Of a stretch of 64,000 nt of DNA, positions 23,433-51,804 are shown in pieces. A model generated the notes under the pieces. The model worked only from the letters and a program-made list of their open reading frames with translations. It did not search any database and was not told where the DNA came from. The position numbers and the translations under genes were made by a program. This DNA comes from Paenibacillus phyllosphaerae (GTDB lineage: Bacteria > Bacillota > Bacilli > Paenibacillales > Paenibacillaceae): positions 1-64,000 of the forward strand of contig NZ_JACHXK010000005.1 in the NCBI RefSeq assembly GCF_014192105.1, written 5' to 3'. Position 1 is the stretch's first letter, and each line of letters starts with the position of its first letter.

Positions 23433-24641
23433 TTATGCGTTCACTTGTGCGTCTGCTTTCAGCTGCTCAGCCTTGTCGACGCGTTCCCAAGGAAGGTCGA
23501 TGTCGGTGCGGCCGAAGTGGCCGTATGCTGCTGTCTTGCCGTAGATCGGACGGCGAAGGTCGAGCATCTTGATGATGCCGGCCGGACGAAGATCGAAGTT
23601 CTTCTGGATGACTTCAACCAAAGTCTCTTCGCTTACTTTGCCAGTGCCATACGTATCCACGTTGATGGATACCGGGTTAGCAACGCCGATTGCGTAAGCA
23701 AGCTGGATTTCGCATTTGTCTGCAAGACCCGCTGCAACGATGTTCTTCGCTACATAACGAGCTGCATAAGCTGCGGAACGGTCAACTTTCGTTGGATCCT
23801 TACCGGAGAACGCGCCGCCGCCGTGGCGTGCATAACCGCCGTACGTGTCAACGATGATCTTACGGCCTGTAAGACCTGCGTCGCCTTGTGGTCCGCCGAT
23901 TACGAAACGGCCCGTAGGGTTGATGAAGTATTTGGTCTCAGCATCGAGCCATTCAGCCGGTACGACCGGCTTGATAACATGCTCCATGATGTCCTTCTGG
24001 ATTTGCTCCAGCGATACTTCTTCAGCATGCTGCGTGGATACGACGATCGTATCGACACGAACTGGCTTGCCGTCCACATACTCAATCGTTACTTGTGTCT
24101 TACCGTCCGGACGCAGGTATTCAAGCGTCTCGTTCTTACGCACTTCCGACAGGCGGCGTGCGATACGGTGGGACAGCGCGATTGGCAGCGGCATCAGCTC
24201 AGGCGTCTCGTTCGTTGCGAAACCGAACATGAGGCCTTGGTCGCCAGCGCCGATGTCTTCGTTCTCTTCGCGGATGTTCTTGCCTTCGCGGGATTCGATC
24301 GCTGCGTTAACGCCTTGCGCGATGTCAGCGGATTGCTCGTTAAGCGAAGTCAATACTGCGCAAGTTGTCGAGTCGAAGCCGAATTTCGCACGTGTATAAC
24401 CGATCTCTTTGATCGTGCGGCGAGCGATCGCCGAGATATCCACGTAGTCTGCACGGCTGCTGATCTCGCCAATAACGAGAACGAGGCCCGTAGCAACGGA
24501 TACTTCACAAGCTACGCGCGCGTATGGGTCTTGCTCGAGGAACGCATCAAGTACCGCGTCCGAGATTTGGTCACATATCTTATCGGGATGTCCTTCCGTG
24601 ACCGATTCCGAAGTAAACAAGTGCCGTCCTTTAATCGACAT
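23433..24641 (-). CDS. metK: S-adenosylmethionine synthetase
   Basis: 402-aa enzyme making S-adenosylmethionine from methionine and ATP. It opens [21 protein letters not shown], has the hexapeptide GAGDQG (in [14 protein letters not shown]) and the P-loop-like [19 protein letters not shown]. Length is standard (about 400 aa). ATG at 24641 with AGGAGG 12 nt upstream. It is a single-gene unit with its own terminator. The roughly 300-nt upstream gap carries no recognisable SAM-I (S-box) riboswitch, which controls metK in B. subtilis; instead it holds a structured repeat shared with the S-layer and mbl leaders. Confidence 0.99.
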
Positions 24642-24763
24642 CTGTTTCTCAACCTCCTGCTGCTCAAAATAAAGGTAAGTATGAAGAATAGTTCATGCAG
24701 GCGCTAGGTTACAATAGAGACGTTCTTCGCTCATGCATGATTCATGGTGAGTATTTCGCGTCC

Positions 24764-24844
24764 AAGGTGAATCGGCTGAGCCGTCAATGGTGGCGGAGCG
24801 CGCTTCACTCCGGAGAAATATAAACTTTCTTATATTTCAAAAAA
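24764..24844 (-). repeat. Structured intergenic element, copy 1 (metK leader)
   Basis: Two adjacent foldable units. Unit 1: GTGAA (24767-24771) pairs with TTCAC (24804-24808), with inner GCT/AGC and GCC/GGC helices. Unit 2: after the linking CTCCGGAG, GAAATATAA (24815-24823) pairs with TTATATTTC (24830-24838). The same CCGGAGAAAT core followed by a stem closing on ATTT recurs at about 32190 and 51400. It lies about 125 nt before the metK start. It does not match any RNA family I know. Confidence 0.7.
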
Positions 24845-24849
24845 TCAAC

Positions 24850-24869
24850 CTTTTCCGGTTGGAAAAGGT
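24850..24869 (-). terminator. Hairpin, possible terminator of the SASP gene
   Basis: CCTTTTCC and GGAAAAGG form a perfect 8-bp stem with a 4-nt loop. On the minus strand TTGATTTTTTG follows, so the T-run begins 4 nt after the stem. It is about 70 nt past the SASP stop and immediately before the structured element of metK. Confidence 0.55.
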
Positions 24870-24938
24870 CGCTAGTCAACTCTCTAAAACAGTATGATAC
24901 CGAAGATGTCGCTTTGTGTCAATGGCTGCGGCGGGTCT

Positions 24939-25226
24939 TCACAGCCCGTTCAATACTCGTTCCGCCTGCTCGACAAGCCGGCGCGTAATGGAGCCGCCAA
25001 TATATCCAACATCTCGGGTTGCCAGGCGGGACCATGGCACGCTGGCCGGGTCGTTCGACTCGCCGATCGTTCCAAAATCATCGGCTGCGAACTCCGTCAT
25101 TCCGAGCCGGTCCGGGGTCACCGCACCTGCCGTCAATCCCAGTTCTGCCGCGATTTCATACTTCATCTGATTGAGCGCTGCCTTACACTCCGGTACAACC
25201 ACGATGTTGCTTCGACGTCTAGCCAT
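24939..25226 (-). CDS. Alpha/beta-type small acid-soluble spore protein
   Basis: 95-aa DNA-binding spore protein that coats and protects forespore DNA. The sequence has the family pattern: VPECKAALNQMKYEIAAELG (consensus near the germination-protease region) and DVGYIGGSITRRLVEQAERV near the C-terminus (consensus G-x-I-T-x-R-L-V). It is more divergent than typical SspA/B: longer, with an insertion between the two conserved segments (FAADDFGTIGESNDPASVPW). I chose the ATG at 25226 (MARRRSNIVVV) with AGGAGGTG 9 nt upstream. Expected to be made in the forespore; I could not find a convincing sigmaG promoter. Confidence 0.9.
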   Translation of the reverse strand: MARRRSNIVVVPECKAALNQMKYEIAAELGLTAGAVTPDRLGMTEFAADDFGTIGESNDPASVPWSRLATRDVGYIGGSITRRLVEQAERVLNGL

Positions 25227-25416
25227 TTCTTCAAGCACCTCCTCGAATGTTGTATGACTAGTGTGCGCGCTGAGGAGGAATTCGAAGCCGCTAACTTCTT
25301 GTCAGCACGGGCAAAAATAGCTACCCCTGTCATGATACGCATATTCGTACTCCGTATGTTCCGGATGACGCAAACCTTAATGCAGCACCCTTGTTCATAT
25401 CGTTGTCCAAACGAAC

Positions 25417-28677: not shown

Positions 28678-31638
28678 TTATTTTACGATTACTTTGAACG
28701 TGATGGATTTACCGTTCGAAGTGATTGCTACAACGTTGAATGTGTCGCCAGCTTCAACAGTTGTAATTGTGTGGTCGTTAGTGAAGCCGGAGTAAACAAC
28801 GCTCTTCAGCGAAGTCGTGATAACTACGCCATATTGGTCAGTTACTTCAACAGCGTCAGCTGCGAAAGCTTTAACCAACGCATCGCTGTTAACGCTAGCT
28901 GCAGCAACGGAAGCAACGTTGCTACCTTCTTCTGTAGCTACACCTTGCGTACGAAGCGCAAGTGTTGCAGGTGCAGGAGCGTCATCGGATACTGTTACTG
29001 CTTTAGTAATCGGCTCTTGAGTAGTGTTCTTAACAGCAACGATTACGTTAACTGTCAGATCACCATCGTCGAATGCATCATCTGCATAACCGAATGCTTC
29101 GATTGTGCTATCGTCTGCATTGAATTCAACGTTGCCGCTAGTAGTTGTAACTTCATAGTACGAAGTAGGAATAGCAACTTTGGAACCGTCAGCCAGAACG
29201 CCACTTACAGTAAGGTCTTTGTCGTAAGTTGTTTCAGCTTCAGTTGGTACAGCCAGGATTTTGCCAAGGTCAGCTACTTCGTAAGAAGCGATGTCAGCTT
29301 GCTCAACAACTTTAAGATTCAGCGAGTATGCGCTGCCTTTAACTGTTTTGTCAGTAGTTGTGAGGTCAGCATTCAGAAGGGACAGCGTGAACTTCTGGCT
29401 ACCTTTCTTCTCGCCTTCAAACGTGAGGCCATCACGTTTTACATAGTTACCGCCATCAGTGATCGAAACAGTGTAATCTGCCCAATCGAAGCCTGGGTAG
29501 CTGTCGTCTGTTTGATCAAGCGTGCGACCGTATTGGTCTTGAATGATAACATCGTCAGCGATGCTCAGAGTATCTGTAGCATCAACTGCGTATACTTTTG
29601 CAAAGTCAGAGTCAATGCCGGAGATTACAGTTGGTACAGCTGCTTCTCCAACTTTGATCGTTTGGTTGATAACTTTGTTTGTTTTTGTTACAGCAGTCAG
29701 TACATAAGTACCTTCTTTGAGACCGTCAACAGTCAGGTTCACTTTGTTGTTCACGTAGTCAGCTACGAATTCAACGCCTTCGCCAAGCTCGTGACCACCA
29801 ACAGTGATGTTGCTGAATGCTGCATTCAGTTTGCTAGCAGAAGTAATTGCGTTGCCGAATTGGTCAACTGCTGTGAATGGTACATTGAACTCTTCACCTG
29901 CTGCTGCGAAGCTTGGGGAAGAGAATGTTACGGAATCAGCTGCAACCGCTTCTTTAACAACTACGTCGAAGGAAGCGAGTTTACCAGTTGTAGTCGATAC
30001 GATTGTTACTTTGGAAGTACCAGCAGCAACCGCATTGTCTTCATCTTCGTCACCTGCAAGTGCAAGTGCAACATATTCCACATCGTCGATCTCAACAGTT
30101 GTGAAATCGCCTTTAGTGTTGGAGTCTGTTACATAATCAACACTAGCATAGTTTTGGTTGGAAACCGATACAACTACGTCATCTTTAACATAAGATGCAT
30201 CTTTGATTGGGTTACCGTATTGGTCTTTAGCTGTTACGATCAGGAAGTACTCAGCAGCGTCATCGCCAGCTGTCAGAGTATCGCCATCTTCGTTGTACAG
30301 TTTATCGATGGAGATTTCAGCAACACGTGCTGGCGAAACGACAGTCAGAACTGTGTTTGCGAATGTGCTGGACTCTACATCAAGAACCGATACAGCAATT
30401 TTGTCATTGAGGTTCAACACGCCAGCTTCTGGAACAGTCAGAACACCGTCTTCAGCAGAGACTTTGCTGTTGCTACCACGGCCAACAGTAAATGTCAGTT
30501 GGTCTTCGTAGTCAGAAGTAACATCTTCACCGTATTGGTTCAAGACTTTGTAACCTACAGTGTAAGTTGCATCGTCTTCGTCATAACCACGAATGAGAAC
30601 CGCTTTGTCGGAAGTGAACTCGATTTTAGCAACTTTCTCGTCTTCAGCTGTGAAAGTAGCTGTGATCGCAGCTTCTTGCAGACCTGTTACGGAAACAGTG
30701 TACGAACCTTCAAGCAGGGAAGAAGCGAACTCAAGAGTCGCAACGTTCTTGTCAGCGTTGAAAGCTGCTGTTTGGTTAACAGTGTTGCCGTTAGCGTTCT
30801 TAACAGTGATTACAGCTTTAGCTGTGTCAACTGCTTGGTTGAAAGTCAGCTCGAGTTTGTCAGCGCCAGTCAGCTTAGCTGTAGCCGTGATTGCTTCGAG
30901 TTTAACTTCAACTTCATAAGTTACGCCTTTGTATTCAACGGATACTTTAGTCGCTACGCCGACTTGCAGAGCGTCCGTAAGTTCTTTTTTAACTACGCCA
31001 CCGTCAGTGAACGTAACTTCGATGTTTTTGGAGTCAACAACTTTCGTGCTCTTCACGGAAGTTTGTGTTTTCTCGTAAACAACGAACGATGCGTCAACGA
31101 GGTCGCCACGAGTAGCAAGCTTCGTGTAGTCAGCGGAAGCAGGGATCAGACCAGCTTCAACAGCTGCTGCTACATAGCCAGTAGCCCATGCGCTTGTTTT
31201 GCCTTCAACTGTTGCGTCAGCTTTAGGAGTAAGACCCATTGCAGTTACAACGATCTTAGCAACTTGCTCAAGCGTAACGTTCAGTTTAGGACCGAATTTG
31301 CCAGCGCCGATACCTTCGAGAATTTTCTTCTCAGCCAGTGCGCCGATTTCGCCGATTGCCCAGTGGTTAGCTGGTACGTCAGTGAAAGAAGCTGCTGCAG
31401 TAGCGTTACCAGTCAGGTTCAGCAGTGCTGCAAGAGCTTTAGCGAACTCTGCACGAGTCATGTTCGCTTCCAGGTGGGATTGACCATCTGGGTAGCCTTG
31501 GAAGATACCTGCTGTTTTCATTGCTTGGAATTTACCTTCTGTGTCAAGCGTCGTTGTTGCGTCAGCTGCGAATGCTGCGGATGCGAACATCGAGAAAGCC
31601 ATAGAAGTTGCTAGGATTGCGGATAAACTTTTTTTCAT
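28678..31638 (-). CDS. Probable major S-layer protein (N-terminal SLH domains)
   Basis: 986-aa exported protein. A classic signal peptide (MKKSLSAILATSMAFSMFAS, ending AAFAAD) is followed by three SLH domains in the first 210 residues (GIFQGYPDGQSHLEANMTRA; FTDVPANHWAIGEIGALAEK; a more divergent third ending near LVDASFVVYEKTQ). About 750 residues of Ig-like/Big-type beta domains follow, with a recurring DQYGNPI / DQFGNAI / DQYGRTL motif. Codon choice differs from the neighbours (GCT, GTT, ACT, AAC preferred), as in very highly expressed genes. The single sigmaA promoter, 180-nt leader, SD AGGAGGAG and strong terminator also fit. SLH domains should bind the wall polymer pyruvylated by CsaB. 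Confidence 0.93.
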   Translation of the reverse strand: MKKSLSAILATSMAFSMFASAAFAADATTTLDTEGKFQAMKTAGIFQGYPDGQSHLEANMTRAEFAKALAALLNLTGNATAAASFTDVPANHWAIGEIGALAEKKILEGIGAGKFGPKLNVTLEQVAKIVVTAMGLTPKADATVEGKTSAWATGYVAAAVEAGLIPASADYTKLATRGDLVDASFVVYEKTQTSVKSTKVVDSKNIEVTFTDGGVVKKELTDALQVGVATKVSVEYKGVTYEVEVKLEAITATAKLTGADKLELTFNQAVDTAKAVITVKNANGNTVNQTAAFNADKNVATLEFASSLLEGSYTVSVTGLQEAAITATFTAEDEKVAKIEFTSDKAVLIRGYDEDDATYTVGYKVLNQYGEDVTSDYEDQLTFTVGRGSNSKVSAEDGVLTVPEAGVLNLNDKIAVSVLDVESSTFANTVLTVVSPARVAEISIDKLYNEDGDTLTAGDDAAEYFLIVTAKDQYGNPIKDASYVKDDVVVSVSNQNYASVDYVTDSNTKGDFTTVEIDDVEYVALALAGDEDEDNAVAAGTSKVTIVSTTTGKLASFDVVVKEAVAADSVTFSSPSFAAAGEEFNVPFTAVDQFGNAITSASKLNAAFSNITVGGHELGEGVEFVADYVNNKVNLTVDGLKEGTYVLTAVTKTNKVINQTIKVGEAAVPTVISGIDSDFAKVYAVDATDTLSIADDVIIQDQYGRTLDQTDDSYPGFDWADYTVSITDGGNYVKRDGLTFEGEKKGSQKFTLSLLNADLTTTDKTVKGSAYSLNLKVVEQADIASYEVADLGKILAVPTEAETTYDKDLTVSGVLADGSKVAIPTSYYEVTTTSGNVEFNADDSTIEAFGYADDAFDDGDLTVNVIVAVKNTTQEPITKAVTVSDDAPAPATLALRTQGVATEEGSNVASVAAASVNSDALVKAFAADAVEVTDQYGVVITTSLKSVVYSGFTNDHTITTVEAGDTFNVVAITSNGKSITFKVIVK

Positions 31639-31827
31639 AACCTTTTTGTCTCCTCCTCGAATATCTTTCACTTTGTTTCGAGAGCTTCAGCTTCCGTTCA
31701 AGAACGTAAGCCTTGCTTCCCATAAAATGATGTCTACGAGCAAGCAGCCGATCCATGTCGGAGACTGTCGCAGAAACTAGTAAACAGGTGAAAAATGTAA
31801 AACTACTAGGGAACTACACACCTCAAC
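31639..31827 (-). other. Untranslated leader of the S-layer gene
   Basis: About 180 nt between the predicted transcription start (near 31821) and the ATG. It contains a strong SD (GAGGAGGAG) but no good open reading frame with its own ribosome-binding site. Long stable leaders are common on S-layer mRNAs. No clear riboswitch is visible. Confidence 0.5.
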
Positions 31828-32140: not shown

Positions 32141-32250
32141 CAACAAGGTGAACCGGCTAACGCCGTCTTTGAATGGCGTAGCGCGGTTCATTCCGGAGAA
32201 ATTGAGAGTGATTTATAATCGTGAAACTTATAAATTCCTCAATTTTAAAA
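32141..32250 (-). repeat. Structured intergenic element, copy 2 (upstream of the S-layer gene)
   Basis: Unit 1: TGAACC (32149-32154) pairs with GGTTCA (32185-32190), with inner GCT/AGC and ACGCC/GGCGT helices. Then TCCGGAG. Unit 2: AAATTGAG (32199-32206) pairs with CTCAATTT (32238-32245), with an inner TTTATAA/TTATAAA stem. Compared with the metK copy, the stems differ in sequence but keep their pairing. It lies between the terminator of the 1410-aa SLH gene and the S-layer promoter, outside the predicted S-layer transcript. Confidence 0.7.
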
Positions 32251-32293
32251 AAGAAGCAGCGGGAACTGGCAATTTGCCGTTCGTCGCTGCTTC
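32246..32293 (-). terminator. Terminator after the 1410-aa SLH gene
   Basis: GAAGCAGCG (32253-32261) pairs with CGCTGCTTC (32285-32293), with an inner GGCA/TGCC pair, and six T's follow on the minus strand. It begins 13 nt after the stop codon and abuts structured element copy 2. Confidence 0.88.
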
Positions 32294-32305: not shown

Positions 32306-35300
32306 TTAGTTCAACTTCGGAAGCTTCTTGAGATCCGCCATCACTTTACCAGTGATAATGGCTGCATCGGAACGCAGCAGATAGGACTGCGATTCGAATA
32401 CATATCCTTTGGTCAGGTCAGCGGAATCCACCGGTGAGCCTTGAATATAGCCCTTCTTGGCAATCGCGAGTACAGAGGCTCTTGCATAATAACTGATATT
32501 CGCATAATCCTTGAACTGCTTCTGAAGCGCTGCAGCAATCTTGGTCGCATCCGTGTCGAGCTTCAATTCAAGCGCACGGGCTAAAATAACCGTAGCCTCG
32601 CCGCGCGTCAAGCTGTTGTTCGGCTCGAACGTCTTCGGCTGCGTACCACGAATAATACCTAGACGTGCAGCCGTCTCAATATAACGATAATCCCACAGGG
32701 CATCCGGGTTGATAATCGGAGCCACGTCATCGAAGCTCGGGTTATCAAGATCGTAGTTCAGTTCGATCTGCATGGCATCGATGATCATCTTGGCGAATTC
32801 ACCGCGTGTCGTATACATATCTACGCCGAAGTCGTCGTAGCTAGAAGCATTCATAATGCCTTTGGAGAACATTGCTTCCAGGTAGTTGCGCGCATACGGA
32901 TGATTTGACGCGTCTGTGAAGGAATACGTCATTTTGCCGACAACATAATAACCGAATTGCTCGAATGGTACGGTTATCGTGTTCTTCTTCGTATCAACGG
33001 TACCACCCATGTTGACCCAATACTTGTTGTTCACGTCATAGTGGAAGACCGTGACTGTCGTGCCTACAGTCTCACGAATGTTCGGATCAAACGTAAGAGT
33101 CAATGTTCCACGCTTGGAAGCAACAAGCTCTAGGTCTTCGGACCGCTCATCATAAGTCGGGATGGTTGTACCGTTCGGTCCGAGCTTGTTGTTCGGGTAT
33201 TGATAAGGATCTACACCGGATGTTACTGGATCATACGCCATCGTCGTCAGATTATCGGCCAGACCCGCATCAATCCAATATACCGGGCTTGCTTTACCGA
33301 AACGAGTCGGGAACGATACCCGGAAACGTGTTCCGTAGTTCTGCAAGATCAAGTCAAAGTCGGCGGGCACGTTGTCATACTCACGACGGTCTACTACCCC
33401 GTCCTCGGAGTTGGCAATGCCGAAGAGCAGTTTGTGCCCGGAGAATACTTGGTTCTTCAGGTTGGCCGGCACGTCCGGATCATTACGGATGAGCGATGTT
33501 CCTTTCGGGAACGTCAACGCGACCGAGCCATCGAATACTTTGTGCGAGCTCTTCATCTCTTCCATATATTGCGCGCCAGGAATGTTGGTCGGCTGATACG
33601 TAATGGTAAACGAATCAGAAACCGTATCACTGGCATTCGTGATGGTGTACGTGATTTTGTTCGCACCGGATTTAAGTCCTGTGATGGTCGCACGGAATGC
33701 ACCTGGATAGTCTACATCATCGGTTGTATCGCCGTCGTTGTTGTAGTCATAACCCGACTTGGTTGCCGTGACTTTGTTGATGACGACCGAGTCTGCGCCT
33801 TTTGCGTTAATAACGACTTCAACGAAGTTCTTGTTCACAATAGATTCTGCCGGCAGGTATGGACGGAGAACCTTGTATGGGAGCACCGTCGGATCGACTT
33901 CTAGGCGATAGCTCGCTTTCGGACCTGACGTACCGCTGTTGTACACGTTAAATACATAAGCGCTCGAACTGCCGTCCGCATTCAGCTCCTGCTTCTTCAC
34001 GATGAAGGAGAAGGTTTGATTGGACAAATCGTAACGTACGATCAGATTGCTGTCGATCGTCGAACCTTCCGGATAGTTACGCACGAAGGAACCGTTATTC
34101 ACGATTTGGAACGGTTTGGACAGATTCCACTCCAGTTCGCTTGTCAAAGACGTTCCAGTCACTTTGAGAATATAGTCCGTGAAGACAATATCGTTGTCTT
34201 CCAGATTCTCCATCTTCTCGTCTATGACATCCGGGTCGCCTGTGCTCGATTGGCCAAGGTCCAAGAAGTCGAACGTACCATAGATGTTCATGAACGATTC
34301 TTTGGTCGTATAGATACCGTTCGTCAGCGTAAAGTTCGTATCGTTGGCATTCGGAACGATAAAGTCGTTCTCGTTATCCGTGGAATACGTGAACGGATAT
34401 ACCGTCGAGCCAGCAAGCGGGATCTCCGGTAAGTTGGTCGGAATGATGTTGAACTTGACCGATTTTTCATAGTAGTTCTTCGTACCTTGGAACACGAACT
34501 TGATGGTATTCTCGCCGCTGAATAACGACTCGAAGGCCATATCGGTATAATACGTCGTTACGGTATTGTTATTCGCATCCGTCGAAGTGATCTTCGTGTC
34601 GGCATCGATCTGGAACACCGTCGAATGCGGGTCCACATCATTTCCGTCCTCGTCGTAAGGTACAAGCGGGATAAGGACGTTGTTCACGTAGAAGAAGATT
34701 GTACGCGTACCCTCTGTCTTGCTCGAAGTGTAACGAATCTCATCCGTATCATTAATATTGTACATCTCGCCTTTGAACTGCTTGAGCACGGTGTCAATGA
34801 TGTACTCTTTACGCTTGCTTGTCAGCTGCGTCGTATCGTCATAGACCGCCATGCCATCATAAATGCTATCGAACTGCACATACGGGCCGTACAGCATCGT
34901 AAATGTAGCTGTAGTCGTGGAAGAAGCCGCATCATCAATCTTGAGCGTAATGGTCTGCGTTCCTTCATATGGCATTTTGTCAAATACGAGAATAACGCGC
35001 TGATACTCTACGCCATCGATATTGACAACCCTGTCGTTGGCAGGATCATCATAGGTGAGAACCGTATAATCAGATTCCTTGATCTCTGTTTTGCTACCGT
35101 AAGCATTCCGGATTTCGGATACAACGACTTCCTTATTGAATTCCGTCGTATTGCCGACAAGCACTTCAACAGCAAGCGGCAACCCGTACAAACTTGCGCC
35201 GTCCAGCGTGACGCCGCCAATCGTTTTGTAAGAAAGTCCGCCTGAGTAGCCTGGCAGATAATTGACTGCTTTCACATAAGCTTCATCCGCATCATGCAGG

Positions 35301-36538
35301 GTGAAATATAAATCCGTGCTCGTCTCGCTCTCAGGCGTCGCGCCCAAGTAAACATTCACTTCATTCAACGCAGTCAGCTGAACGGTGAATTTGTTATTGA
35401 AGATCAAATTCGATGCCGCCGTATTCCCTACGTTCGGAAGTTCAAAACGATACTCGTAAATGAAGAAAGCCGCATTCTCCGTCGGCGTGCCTGTCACACG
35501 AATATTGGAATCCTGAATGGAGATGCCGTTCAGGTCGATCTTCTGAGTCGTATTACGCACGGCAACTTCAAAGCCTTCGAGGCCCGCTGCCGCGAAATCC
35601 GGATGCGGCGTAGCTTGTCCGCCTTCCACATCGGCATGATAGCTGTTAGGCACGATGACTTTACCGTAAACCGTGAATTTGGAGGTTTCTTTGGCTACTA
35701 GCGTAGGAGACGTGCTCAGATCTGCCGTGTCACTCGGGGTCGCCGTAGAACTAACCGTCCGATCTGCACTTGCGTCTTCCCATTCTTCCACCCGCACATC
35801 GATAAAAGAAACGGAACCATTATAGAAGGCTACGGTTCTGGTCGAGGTCGAAACCTGCGTACCGTTGGAGATTTTGAAGGTAATCGTATTCTGACCTTCA
35901 TTCAAAACAATCGGTGAAGCGGCAAAACTGTTATTGTTCGCGGTATTGACGGTATACGTCTTACTGCTGCCGTTGACGACGATCGTTACGCCCGTCGCAT
36001 TCGGCGCATTACCGGTAATGCTGATATTCGCCGTCGTTTTGCCCTTCGAAGCGGTCGATTGGACAACGGTTGTACCTACTTCGGTAATCGGGAAGCTGTT
36101 GCCGTCCAGATTAGCCGTCAAGTTATAAAGCATTGGCGAGTTGCGGTATTCGATATAGATCGAGTTACTCACTTCACCGCCGTTCCGCATGCCCGTGAAC
36201 GTGATTTTGTTCAAGCCCGGGAACAGCTGAACGTTGTAGATCGTGATCGCATTGTCCGTTACGTAGATGTTACTCGTAAGGTCCTCACGCGAGTTCTCGG
36301 TCTTATTATTAATAATCTGCAAGACACTATACGAAATGGTCGATGTGTCGACGTTGCTCACCGTACCCGTCAGTGTGACGCGCTCGGTCGTGACGACACG
36401 CGGCGAAGTCGCGGATGCGCTCTCGCCCGGGAAGTTGAAGCTGCCTGATGCCGCGGTCGCTGTCTGGATGGTGCCTGCCGGCACCAACTGGACGAACAGG
36501 CTGACAAGCATCAGCCATAAGCCTAATTTCTTAATCAC
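32306..36538 (-). CDS. S-layer homology protein, 1410 aa
   Basis: Exported protein with a signal peptide (LWLMLVSLFVQLVPAGTIQT) and a long beta-rich body with repeated Ig-like units (VSNVDTSTISYSVLQII, VTLTGTVSNVD, ITGNAPNATGVTIVVNGSSK, NEGQNTITFKISNGTQVSTS, later GAFRATITGLKSGANKITYT). The C-terminal 200 residues hold three SLH domains (ARNYLEAMFSKGIMNASSYD; DALWDYRYIETAARLGIIRG with NNSLTRGEATVILARA; ARASVLAIAKKGYIQGSPVD). The start is GTG at 36538 with AAGGAGG. A sigmaD-like promoter overlapping a perfect palindrome lies about 110 nt upstream, so it may be co-regulated with motility. Likely a cell-surface protein anchored to pyruvylated wall polymer. Confidence 0.92.
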   Translation of the reverse strand: MIKKLGLWLMLVSLFVQLVPAGTIQTATAASGSFNFPGESASATSPRVVTTERVTLTGTVSNVDTSTISYSVLQIINNKTENSREDLTSNIYVTDNAITIYNVQLFPGLNKITFTGMRNGGEVSNSIYIEYRNSPMLYNLTANLDGNSFPITEVGTTVVQSTASKGKTTANISITGNAPNATGVTIVVNGSSKTYTVNTANNNSFAASPIVLNEGQNTITFKISNGTQVSTSTRTVAFYNGSVSFIDVRVEEWEDASADRTVSSTATPSDTADLSTSPTLVAKETSKFTVYGKVIVPNSYHADVEGGQATPHPDFAAAGLEGFEVAVRNTTQKIDLNGISIQDSNIRVTGTPTENAAFFIYEYRFELPNVGNTAASNLIFNNKFTVQLTALNEVNVYLGATPESETSTDLYFTLHDADEAYVKAVNYLPGYSGGLSYKTIGGVTLDGASLYGLPLAVEVLVGNTTEFNKEVVVSEIRNAYGSKTEIKESDYTVLTYDDPANDRVVNIDGVEYQRVILVFDKMPYEGTQTITLKIDDAASSTTTATFTMLYGPYVQFDSIYDGMAVYDDTTQLTSKRKEYIIDTVLKQFKGEMYNINDTDEIRYTSSKTEGTRTIFFYVNNVLIPLVPYDEDGNDVDPHSTVFQIDADTKITSTDANNNTVTTYYTDMAFESLFSGENTIKFVFQGTKNYYEKSVKFNIIPTNLPEIPLAGSTVYPFTYSTDNENDFIVPNANDTNFTLTNGIYTTKESFMNIYGTFDFLDLGQSSTGDPDVIDEKMENLEDNDIVFTDYILKVTGTSLTSELEWNLSKPFQIVNNGSFVRNYPEGSTIDSNLIVRYDLSNQTFSFIVKKQELNADGSSSAYVFNVYNSGTSGPKASYRLEVDPTVLPYKVLRPYLPAESIVNKNFVEVVINAKGADSVVINKVTATKSGYDYNNDGDTTDDVDYPGAFRATITGLKSGANKITYTITNASDTVSDSFTITYQPTNIPGAQYMEEMKSSHKVFDGSVALTFPKGTSLIRNDPDVPANLKNQVFSGHKLLFGIANSEDGVVDRREYDNVPADFDLILQNYGTRFRVSFPTRFGKASPVYWIDAGLADNLTTMAYDPVTSGVDPYQYPNNKLGPNGTTIPTYDERSEDLELVASKRGTLTLTFDPNIRETVGTTVTVFHYDVNNKYWVNMGGTVDTKKNTITVPFEQFGYYVVGKMTYSFTDASNHPYARNYLEAMFSKGIMNASSYDDFGVDMYTTRGEFAKMIIDAMQIELNYDLDNPSFDDVAPIINPDALWDYRYIETAARLGIIRGTQPKTFEPNNSLTRGEATVILARALELKLDTDATKIAAALQKQFKDYANISYYARASVLAIAKKGYIQGSPVDSADLTKGYVFESQSYLLRSDAAIITGKVMADLKKLPKLN

Positions 36539-50292: not shown

Positions 50293-51288
50293 CTATATCT
50301 TACGCGGAGAACGATCGAGATAGTCGAGCAGCAGGCCTGTCCCTTTCACGACGCAATGCATCGGATCCTCGGCAATGAGGACGGGCACCTTCAGTTCCTC
50401 CGCAAGGAGTGCATCCAAACCGTCCAACATGGCGCCGCCGCCCGTCAGAATAACGCCGCGGTCGATAATATCCGCCGACAATTCCGGCGGTGTCCGCTCC
50501 AGCACCGACTTGGCTGCCGCCACGATCGACGATACCGGCTCCCACAGCGCTTCGCGCACTTCGTCCGAATGAATCGTTACCGTCAGCGGCAAGCCGGATA
50601 CCATATCCCGTCCGCGAATATCGATCTCGTCCCGGCGTCCGGTATTGTATACCGTCGCAATCTTGATCTTAATATCCTCGCTGGTCCGTTCGCCGATTAG
50701 AAGCTTGTACTTATTCTTGATGTAGCGCATGATCGCGGAATCGAACTTGTCCCCCGCGACTTTAATAGAAGAGGCGGTGACGATATCGCCCATGGAAAGA
50801 ACAGCGATATCCGTCGTGCCGCCGCCGATATCGACGACCATATTGCCGCTAGGCTGATAGATGTCCATGCCTGCGCCAATTGCTGCCGCTTTAGGTTCCT
50901 CTTCTAAGAAGACGTCCTTCGCGCCGCTGCGTTCTGCCGCTTCGCGAATCGCTTTTTGTTCGACTGACGTAATATTCGTAGGCGCGCAGATGAGAATGCG
51001 CGGCCGGCTGTACCAGGAACGCGCACCGATCCGGTCGATGAATGCCTTGAGCATGATCTCCGTAATCTCGAAATCCGCAATAACCCCATCGCGAAGCGGC
51101 CGGATGGCGATGATATTGCCTGGCGTACGGCCTACCATCCGGTGCGCTTCCTCGCCTACGGCGAGCACTCGTTTAGTTTCGCTCTCGATCGCAACGACCG
51201 AAGGCTCATCCAGTACGACGCCCCTCCCCTTCACGTGAATGGACACATTCGCTGTCCCTAAATCAATACCGATATCCTTGCTAAACAT
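50293..51288 (-). CDS. mbl: Actin-like cell-shape protein Mbl
   Basis: 331-aa MreB-family cytoskeletal ATPase that directs lateral wall synthesis. Motifs: phosphate 1 (SKDIGIDLGTANVSIHVKG), phosphate 2 (GNMVVDIGGGTTDIAVLSMG) and the adenosine loop (RGVILTGGGAMLDGLDALLA). I chose the ATG at 51288, 10 nt after GGGGGA; the longer frame upstream reads through a tandem repeat and the leader element and is not part of the protein. Assignment to Mbl rather than MreB rests on its position between spoIIID and flhO, as in B. subtilis. Confidence 0.95.
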   Translation of the reverse strand: MFSKDIGIDLGTANVSIHVKGRGVVLDEPSVVAIESETKRVLAVGEEAHRMVGRTPGNIIAIRPLRDGVIADFEITEIMLKAFIDRIGARSWYSRPRILICAPTNITSVEQKAIREAAERSGAKDVFLEEEPKAAAIGAGMDIYQPSGNMVVDIGGGTTDIAVLSMGDIVTASSIKVAGDKFDSAIMRYIKNKYKLLIGERTSEDIKIKIATVYNTGRRDEIDIRGRDMVSGLPLTVTIHSDEVREALWEPVSSIVAAAKSVLERTPPELSADIIDRGVILTGGGAMLDGLDALLAEELKVPVLIAEDPMHCVVKGTGLLLDYLDRSPRKI

Positions 51289-51321
51289 ACGTCTTAAGTC
51301 CCCCAAAGCGAATAGTAGTCG

Positions 51322-51388
51322 ATCCCTGGAAAGACCGCTGTGGCCATCCCTGGAAAGACCGCTGTGGCCATCCCTGGCAGCGCCAGCA
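51322..51388. repeat. 24-bp tandem repeat in the mbl leader
   Basis: Two identical 24-bp units (51322-51345, 51346-51369; beginning ATCCCTGGAAAGACC) and a partial third (from 51370). They lie between the mbl start and structured element copy 3. Confidence 0.9.
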
Positions 51389-51455
51389 GTCTCCATCCGG
51401 AGAAATATAGGCACGCGTATAGGCATCGCCTTATACTGTTCTATATTTCCAAAAA
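51370..51455 (-). repeat. Structured intergenic element, copy 3 (mbl leader)
   Basis: Unit 1 is a short CTGGC-AGC-GCCAG hairpin (51374-51386). Then TCCGGAG. Unit 2: GAAATATAG (51402-51410) pairs with CTATATTTC (51441-51449), with an inner GTATAGGC/GCCTTATAC stem. The CCGGAGAAAT core is identical to the copies upstream of metK and the S-layer gene; unit 1 is different in sequence. It lies about 80-165 nt before the mbl ATG. Confidence 0.7.
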
Positions 51456-51516: not shown

Positions 51517-51804
51517 TTACGTTTTAGCCGCGGCCACCACTTCACGTTTGCGTCCTGTACTCTTCTTATACTTGATTTTCGTGGCCTCTCCTCCCCTTAA
51601 GTGCCGGATCGATTTGTGATACTCCAGGATATGCTTCACCTGGTCCGCCAAATCGGGATTTATCTCCGGCAAACGCTCGGTTAAATCCTTGTGCACCGTG
51701 CTTTTGGAGACGCCAAATTCCTTAGCGATCGTTCGTACCGTATGCTTCGTCTCGACGATGCAACGGCCGATCTTGATGGTCCGTTCTTTGATGTAATCGT
51801 GCAC
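51517..51804 (-). CDS. spoIIID: Stage III sporulation transcriptional regulator SpoIIID
   Basis: 95-aa DNA-binding protein of the mother cell that switches expression from sigmaE to sigmaK genes. HTH: KHTVRTIAKEFGVSKSTVHK, followed by the conserved DLTERLPEINPDLADQVKHI and a basic C-terminal helix (HLRGGEATKIKYKKSTGRKR). GTG start at 51804 with GGGAGG 7 nt upstream. A sigmaE promoter lies 35-60 nt upstream, matching its known control in B. subtilis. Confidence 0.97.
   Translation of the reverse strand: MHDYIKERTIKIGRCIVETKHTVRTIAKEFGVSKSTVHKDLTERLPEINPDLADQVKHILEYHKSIRHLRGGEATKIKYKKSTGRKREVVAAAKT

Follow-up and report, generated by a model that had tools for sequence, protein, structure and literature searches.

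A structured element at three sites

The window, the whole stretch of 64,000 nucleotides analysed here, contains three copies of a short structured element, found near metK, between two S-layer-homology genes, and near mbl. Each consists of two hairpins (HP1 and HP2), and each has a hairpin and a run of T directly 5' of it, called here its target.

24763..24837, minus strand: copy 1; covariance model match E 7e-10; HP1 shortened (AAATATAAGAAAGTTTATATTT), its apex deleted; HP2 complete; 3' end CACCTTG; neighbours a SASP gene (24939-25238) and metK (23433-24641)
24839..24869, minus strand: target of copy 1; terminator-like hairpin ACCTTTTCC..GGAAAAGGT, then TTTTTT; the copy starts after TTTTTTG
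32144..32245, minus strand: copy 2, full length; covariance model match E 1.8e-20; neighbours S-layer-homology genes at 32306-36538 (upstream) and 28678-31671 (downstream)
32199..32245, minus strand: HP1 of copy 2, an A+T-rich hairpin
32149..32190, minus strand: HP2 of copy 2, a G+C-rich hairpin, followed by the terminal CCTTG at 32144-32148
32247..32293, minus strand: target of copy 2, the terminator of the upstream S-layer gene, GAAGCAGCG..CGCTGCTTC with TTTTTT
about 51324-51448, minus strand: copy 3, diverged, with an internal duplication of ~24 nt; inserted after TTTTTGG; neighbours spoIIID (51517-51804) and mbl

A sequence-only reading of this DNA had seen three copies in one orientation. 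The copies are real and the orientation is as described (the window has ATTTCTCCGG exactly three times, always on the minus strand), but the coordinates have been corrected to those above. That reading also let the element close on ATTT, whereas it is properly read on the minus strand, AAAT first and CTTG last. The covariance model finds these three copies in the window and no others, its match to copy 3 spanning 51349-51448 (E 1.6e-6). RNA folding gives z values of -5.85 for copy 2, -3.31 for copy 3, and -2.21 for copy 1. The 10-mer ATTTCTCCGG taken alone would be weak proof, matching 6 times in the window with at most one mismatch against 4.6 expected.

The minus strand at 24839-24925, 5' of metK, has a promoter-like TTGACA..TATCAT and then, close by, a terminator hairpin and T-run, an arrangement kept in the congeners compared. 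This resembles an attenuator in the metK leader, and Rfam has no match to it. The hairpin and T-run that form the target of copy 1 are kept in the aligned relatives.

Architecture and covariation

The element is ~102 nt long (about 95-105) and contains no gene. From 5' to 3' it comprises HP1, a linker CTCCGG, HP2, and a terminal CTTG. HP1 is AAATACAAG...CTTGTATTT, reading AAATACAAGaaTTTATAAGtttcacgCTTATAAATcatCTTGTATTT in the genome-wide unit, and HP2 is TGAAAC...GTTTCA, within the unit TGAAAC...CGCC...GGCG..AGCCGTTTCA, then CCTTG. The ends are sharp: the 5' end is of the AAAT type and the 3' end is almost invariably CTTG, the terminus of 54 of the 58 copies from other genomes.

Compensatory change in the helices, first suspected from the three copies, has now been tested on 114 aligned matches, where 25 of 29 pairs show two-sided changes. 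The covariation score is 0.207, compared with 0.097 after shuffling (0 of 500 shuffles reach it) and with no more than 0.067 after sliding of partners. A second alignment, from other species, scores 0.277 vs 0.098, though it was fitted to the model and so is biased toward structure. Several stem types coexist (AAATACAAG/CTTGTATTT, AAATAGAAG/CTTCTATTT, ACATATAGG/CCTCTATGT, and AATTCTACG/CATAGAATT). The HP2 stem varies across families (GAATGAAAC/GTTTCACC, GAGAAAC/GTTTCTTC, GGTAAAC/GTTTATCC, and GCGAAAC/GTTTACGC), while the terminal CTTG is constant.

Mismatches on the element strand are more often G-T (126) than A-C (73), with p 2e-4 by cells, a figure in which related copies are counted; by column the excess is weaker (17:8, p 0.11). 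The element strand is therefore probably the folded one. Two further pairings judged by eye, one of the HP1 loop with HP2 and one of a guide sequence with the target, fail across subfamilies and were rejected.

Copy number and distribution

Genome-wide, ATTTCTCCGG has 70 exact matches, against 8 for its reversed control. A first covariance model, built from 20 copies, was used to search the genome and the family, as the sequence-only reading had proposed, and it yielded many copies, with covariation and no match to a described family. In the genome (7.9 Mb) there are 116 covariance matches at E<=0.1, a few of which are opposite-strand shadows, and from this search I count about 100-110 copies. 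Several lie in abutting head-to-tail arrays, joined as CACCTTG^AAATA (^ marks a junction). At such a junction each new copy has used the 3' hairpin of the preceding one as its target. In one array (L199, G000:C5:188659-189350), where a divergent subfamily has at least five copies head to tail, a run of N intervenes, so that tandem copies probably break this assembly. Comparison of flank against flank disclosed no larger repeated unit around the element.

Within the genus 21 of 22 genomes are positive, with widely different copy numbers. A first survey of families found the other families of the order patchily positive. A model trained on several species detects the element in 109 of 300 genomes sampled from the order, in 19 of 49 genera, many with at least 13 copies. 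In a sample of 300 genomes from the class, searched with the first model, 13 other genomes were positive, all of the same family and none outside it. Named positives among public genomes are Paenibacillus only, and plasmid matches are limited to two large replicons of Paenibacillus cellulosilyticus. A phage collection gave no match. Viral contigs do contain pattern matches, as do Chitinophaga, Verrucomicrobia, and others, but none fits the covariance model, and those in the latter groups are attributed to chance.

Filled and empty sites

The metK site is empty in 10 of 13 relatives. Diverged copies sit at exactly the same position in two others (G010 and G004), and the sequence of G018 is ambiguous. 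The empty site reads TTTTTTG^GAATCGAAACG and the filled one TTTTTTG^AAATATAAG..CACCTTG^GACGCG, with no target duplication. The S-layer site (copy 2) is empty in 7 of 7 relatives and the mbl site (copy 3) in 13 of 13. With its sites empty in nearly all the relatives compared, the element is mobile and not a conserved cis-regulator. Comparison of flanks shows that this genome has few places in common with 20 loci of G021. Both genomes have copies in the leader of purE, which I take from its sequence to hold a purine riboswitch, but at different places, those of G021 lying right after a terminator-like end. G390 has three 95-nt copies that are 100% identical and have unrelated flanks, so the movement was recent. 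Identical copies also occur in G505 and P. methanolicus.

The exception may be a leader whose gene was identified by eye, from its translation, as a putative mazE-like antitoxin. There the site is common to four species (G019, G017, G006, and G004), with nearly identical flanks and one or two copies (L064, L075, L078, and L079). Such persistence could reflect selection for function. At the window sites no position is kept 5' of orthologous genes. Tandem arrays at one shared site vary in number from species to species and might also be of use in typing.

Could the element nonetheless be a cis-regulatory RNA, a leader of riboswitch-like or protein-binding type that duplication has spread and selection maintains? 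The strong covariation, the mazE-like site just described, and the frequency of a co-oriented downstream gene (below) would fit such an RNA. It is nevertheless highly improbable when sites are empty in relatives, downstream genes are unrelated, identical copies occur in unrelated contexts, and nothing is invariant in the manner of a ligand pocket save CTCCGG and CTTG. The sequence-only reading had left the choice between a selfish intergenic repeat and a cis-acting RNA. The first is supported by the copy number (about 100-110), the tandem arrays, the sites empty in relatives, and the identical dispersed copies; a cis-acting RNA serving metK, S-layer, and mbl genes in general is not.

Insertion behind intrinsic terminators

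The main regularity escaped the sequence-only reading: the element is inserted immediately behind intrinsic terminators, among them attenuators in leaders such as those with a T-box. It was correct to say that the copies lie 5' of genes, as a downstream gene does follow, but this omits the terminator hairpin and T-run directly 5' of each copy. In this genome terminator-like flanks are found on the left of 23 of 87 copies, on the right of 1 of 87, and at 5 of 435 random positions. The corresponding figures in other genomes are 22/57, 1/58, and 10/348. The hairpin test is strict, so that between a quarter and half of the flanks, approximately, qualify as terminators; the others are T-rich, with weaker hairpins. 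At least four T's occur in the last nine bases of 56 of 57 left flanks in other genomes, against 69 of 348 random positions.

Neighbouring genes, predicted with a simple codon score, are both co-oriented with the element (++) at 50 loci and both anti-oriented (--) at 11, and the downstream gene is co-oriented at 68 of 87. At two loci, in different genera, the element directly follows a T-box leader on its own strand. Target choice plus tolerance best accounts for the position behind terminators.

Target duplication across 112 sites is no more frequent than expected from re-paired flanks (k = 1-7). This bears on the idea of an ordinary MITE moved by a DDE transposase, which the size, copy number, and intergenic position of the element might bring to mind. 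The idea is scarcely credible, for besides the lack of target duplication, orientation is fixed relative to terminators and there are no terminal inverted repeats (AAATACAAG.. vs CAAGGTGAAAC.., the ends being AAAT(A).. and ..CACCTTG).

Route of movement

I propose, with a probability of roughly 0.8, that the element is a non-autonomous, gene-less unit of ~95-105 nt, moved in trans by way of a single-stranded intermediate. The agent would act in trans because the element has no gene of its own. A trans-acting enzyme would take as its target a hairpin with a T-rich stretch behind it, and the element would move as a single-stranded form of the element strand, either RNA or ssDNA. An existing copy, with its own 3' hairpin and CTTG, has itself received further copies, which sit directly behind it and so build head-to-tail arrays. 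Landing behind terminators would spare genes, and this would explain how a genome tolerates more than 100 copies. Neither a mobilising enzyme nor an autonomous relative was found in searches for Y1, Y2, Rep_1, and group II maturase, or for 3' ends alone (GTTTCACCTTG), the last of which gave just truncated copies or chance matches.

Two routes can be considered within this proposal, and the likelihoods I assign to them are shares of it, not alternatives to it. In the first, read-through of a terminator would make RNA of the element, which a reverse transcriptase acting in trans would insert at terminators and copy into DNA, in the manner of group IIC introns. Those introns often lie shortly downstream of factor-independent terminators (PMC3240598), so the target is the same, as is the order of hairpin, T-run, and 5' end, and the strand that folds is the strand that read-through would transcribe. 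A few 5'-truncated copies that abut the terminator T-run, such as L211 (GCGTTCTTTTTTTG^TTTCTCCGG) and L206, favour the route slightly, but these copies may have been shortened by deletion afterwards, and intact 3' ends were favoured in the search. The group II maturase domain, to which the search for reverse transcriptases was directed, is absent from G021 (at least 49 copies) and G020 (17 copies). Such maturases are present in this genome, but their presence does not follow copy number. Group IIC introns are, moreover, large ribozymes with their own reverse transcriptase, while the element is ~100 nt, lacks genes, has no recognisable intron ends, and despite its insertion behind intrinsic terminators has no Rfam intron match. 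I regard the RNA route as possible, and tentatively so. Its boldest form would make the element a bacterial SINE, a gene-less RNA of ~100 nt copied into DNA in trans by a reverse transcriptase that targets terminator hairpins, loading riboswitch and T-box leaders with structured RNA; that I consider rather unlikely.

In the second route, which has its analogue in Helitrons, a HUH enzyme (rolling-circle or IS200/IS605-type) would act on a hairpin plus (C)TTG at both boundaries. Tandem copies are indeed bounded on both sides by a hairpin and CTTG^A, target duplication is lacking, and orientation is fixed. The nick site of pC194/phiX174-type Reps is CTTG^ATA, and the target of IS91 is CTTG/GTTC. 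The left target, however, is not always TTG. Y1_Tnp (PF01797) appears in one of 12 genomes tested, marginally, and not in this one. Y2_Tnp (PF04986) is intact only in G014 (fragments occur in G048, G018, and G029) and is also missing here, and the ends of the intact G014 element are quite different, attC-like, with no covariance model match. A search for Rep_1 gave no matches, its control being equally silent. I regard the ssDNA route as possible too, and as slightly less likely than the RNA route. The Y2 locus itself (L343:1-3170) has an IS91-like transposase beside a tyrosine recombinase, flanked by two attC-like imperfect repeats of ~110 nt.

The exact ends, the target, and the active genomes are now known, which makes a direct search for the enzyme possible.

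As a secondary matter, copies in 5' leaders (metK, purE, the mazE-like antitoxin gene, and T-box genes) are probably transcribed along with the gene and may be co-opted for regulation. They illustrate how T-box or riboswitch leaders gain extra structured RNA.

Relation to known elements

The view that no known RNA family matches the element stands. Rfam 15 has no gathering-level match in the window, and permissive searches of loci that contain copies turned up nothing credible on the element itself. No earlier description of such a Paenibacillus repeat was found in the open-access literature or Rfam, by which the family is apparently undescribed. With dispersed intergenic copies, present or absent among relatives, the element is a small non-autonomous interspersed repeat of the bcr/BOX-like kind, and its closest analogues in kind are the bcr repeats and the pneumococcal BOX, RUP, and SPRITE. 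The family is widespread and was active recently; its members are very small mobile elements, and their target, the intrinsic terminator, is sharply defined.

Repeats bcr1-bcr18 of Bacillus cereus are 100-400 bp, with tens to 130 copies per genome, confined to one bacterial group and showing features of mobility, by a mechanism that is unsettled (PMC6542083). The element resembles them in size, copy number, restriction to one group, and mobile features. It differs in that the mobility of bcr repeats is linked to a repeated TTTAT motif (PMC6542083), while the element makes no duplication and targets a terminator hairpin with T-run, and in range, an order instead of a species group. BOX, RUP, and SPRITE of Streptococcus pneumoniae are likewise small structured interspersed repeats whose orientation follows coding bias (PMC3049150). 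BOX and RUP, however, have terminal inverted repeats and target duplications, neither of which the element has, and SPRITE itself resembles a terminator (PMC3049150), while the element inserts behind one.

The rolling-circle transposons Helitron and IS91 share with the element a right-end hairpin, then a short conserved tetranucleotide (in Helitrons CTAG, occasionally CTTG), and the lack of target duplication (PMC4778049). They differ in that the element has a hairpin at its left end as well and no transposase, and this genome has no IS91-type enzyme. Derivation from IS91 was rejected, there being no Y2 transposase here and the G014 element having different ends. REP/REPIN and IS200/IS605-derived palindromic elements also have hairpins and no target duplication, but their target differs, and the absence of a Y1 transposase from this genome and from 11 of the 12 tested led to the rejection of an IS200/IS605-derived or REP/RAYT element.

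The covariance model can serve in annotating genomes of an order of common soil bacteria. At 51286-51426 the longest mbl ORF begins at an ATG within the inserted copy 3; relatives and a Pfam match indicate that the true start lies further downstream (ATGTTTAGCAAGGAT), and automatic annotation may wrongly lengthen mbl into the copy. Elsewhere in this genome, short tandem hairpin repeats of about 50 nt, GGATTGGTTTGAGCGGCCGTTAGGCCGATCAGCATTCCATC, form another family (L104:4510-4702 and L198:6279-6457).
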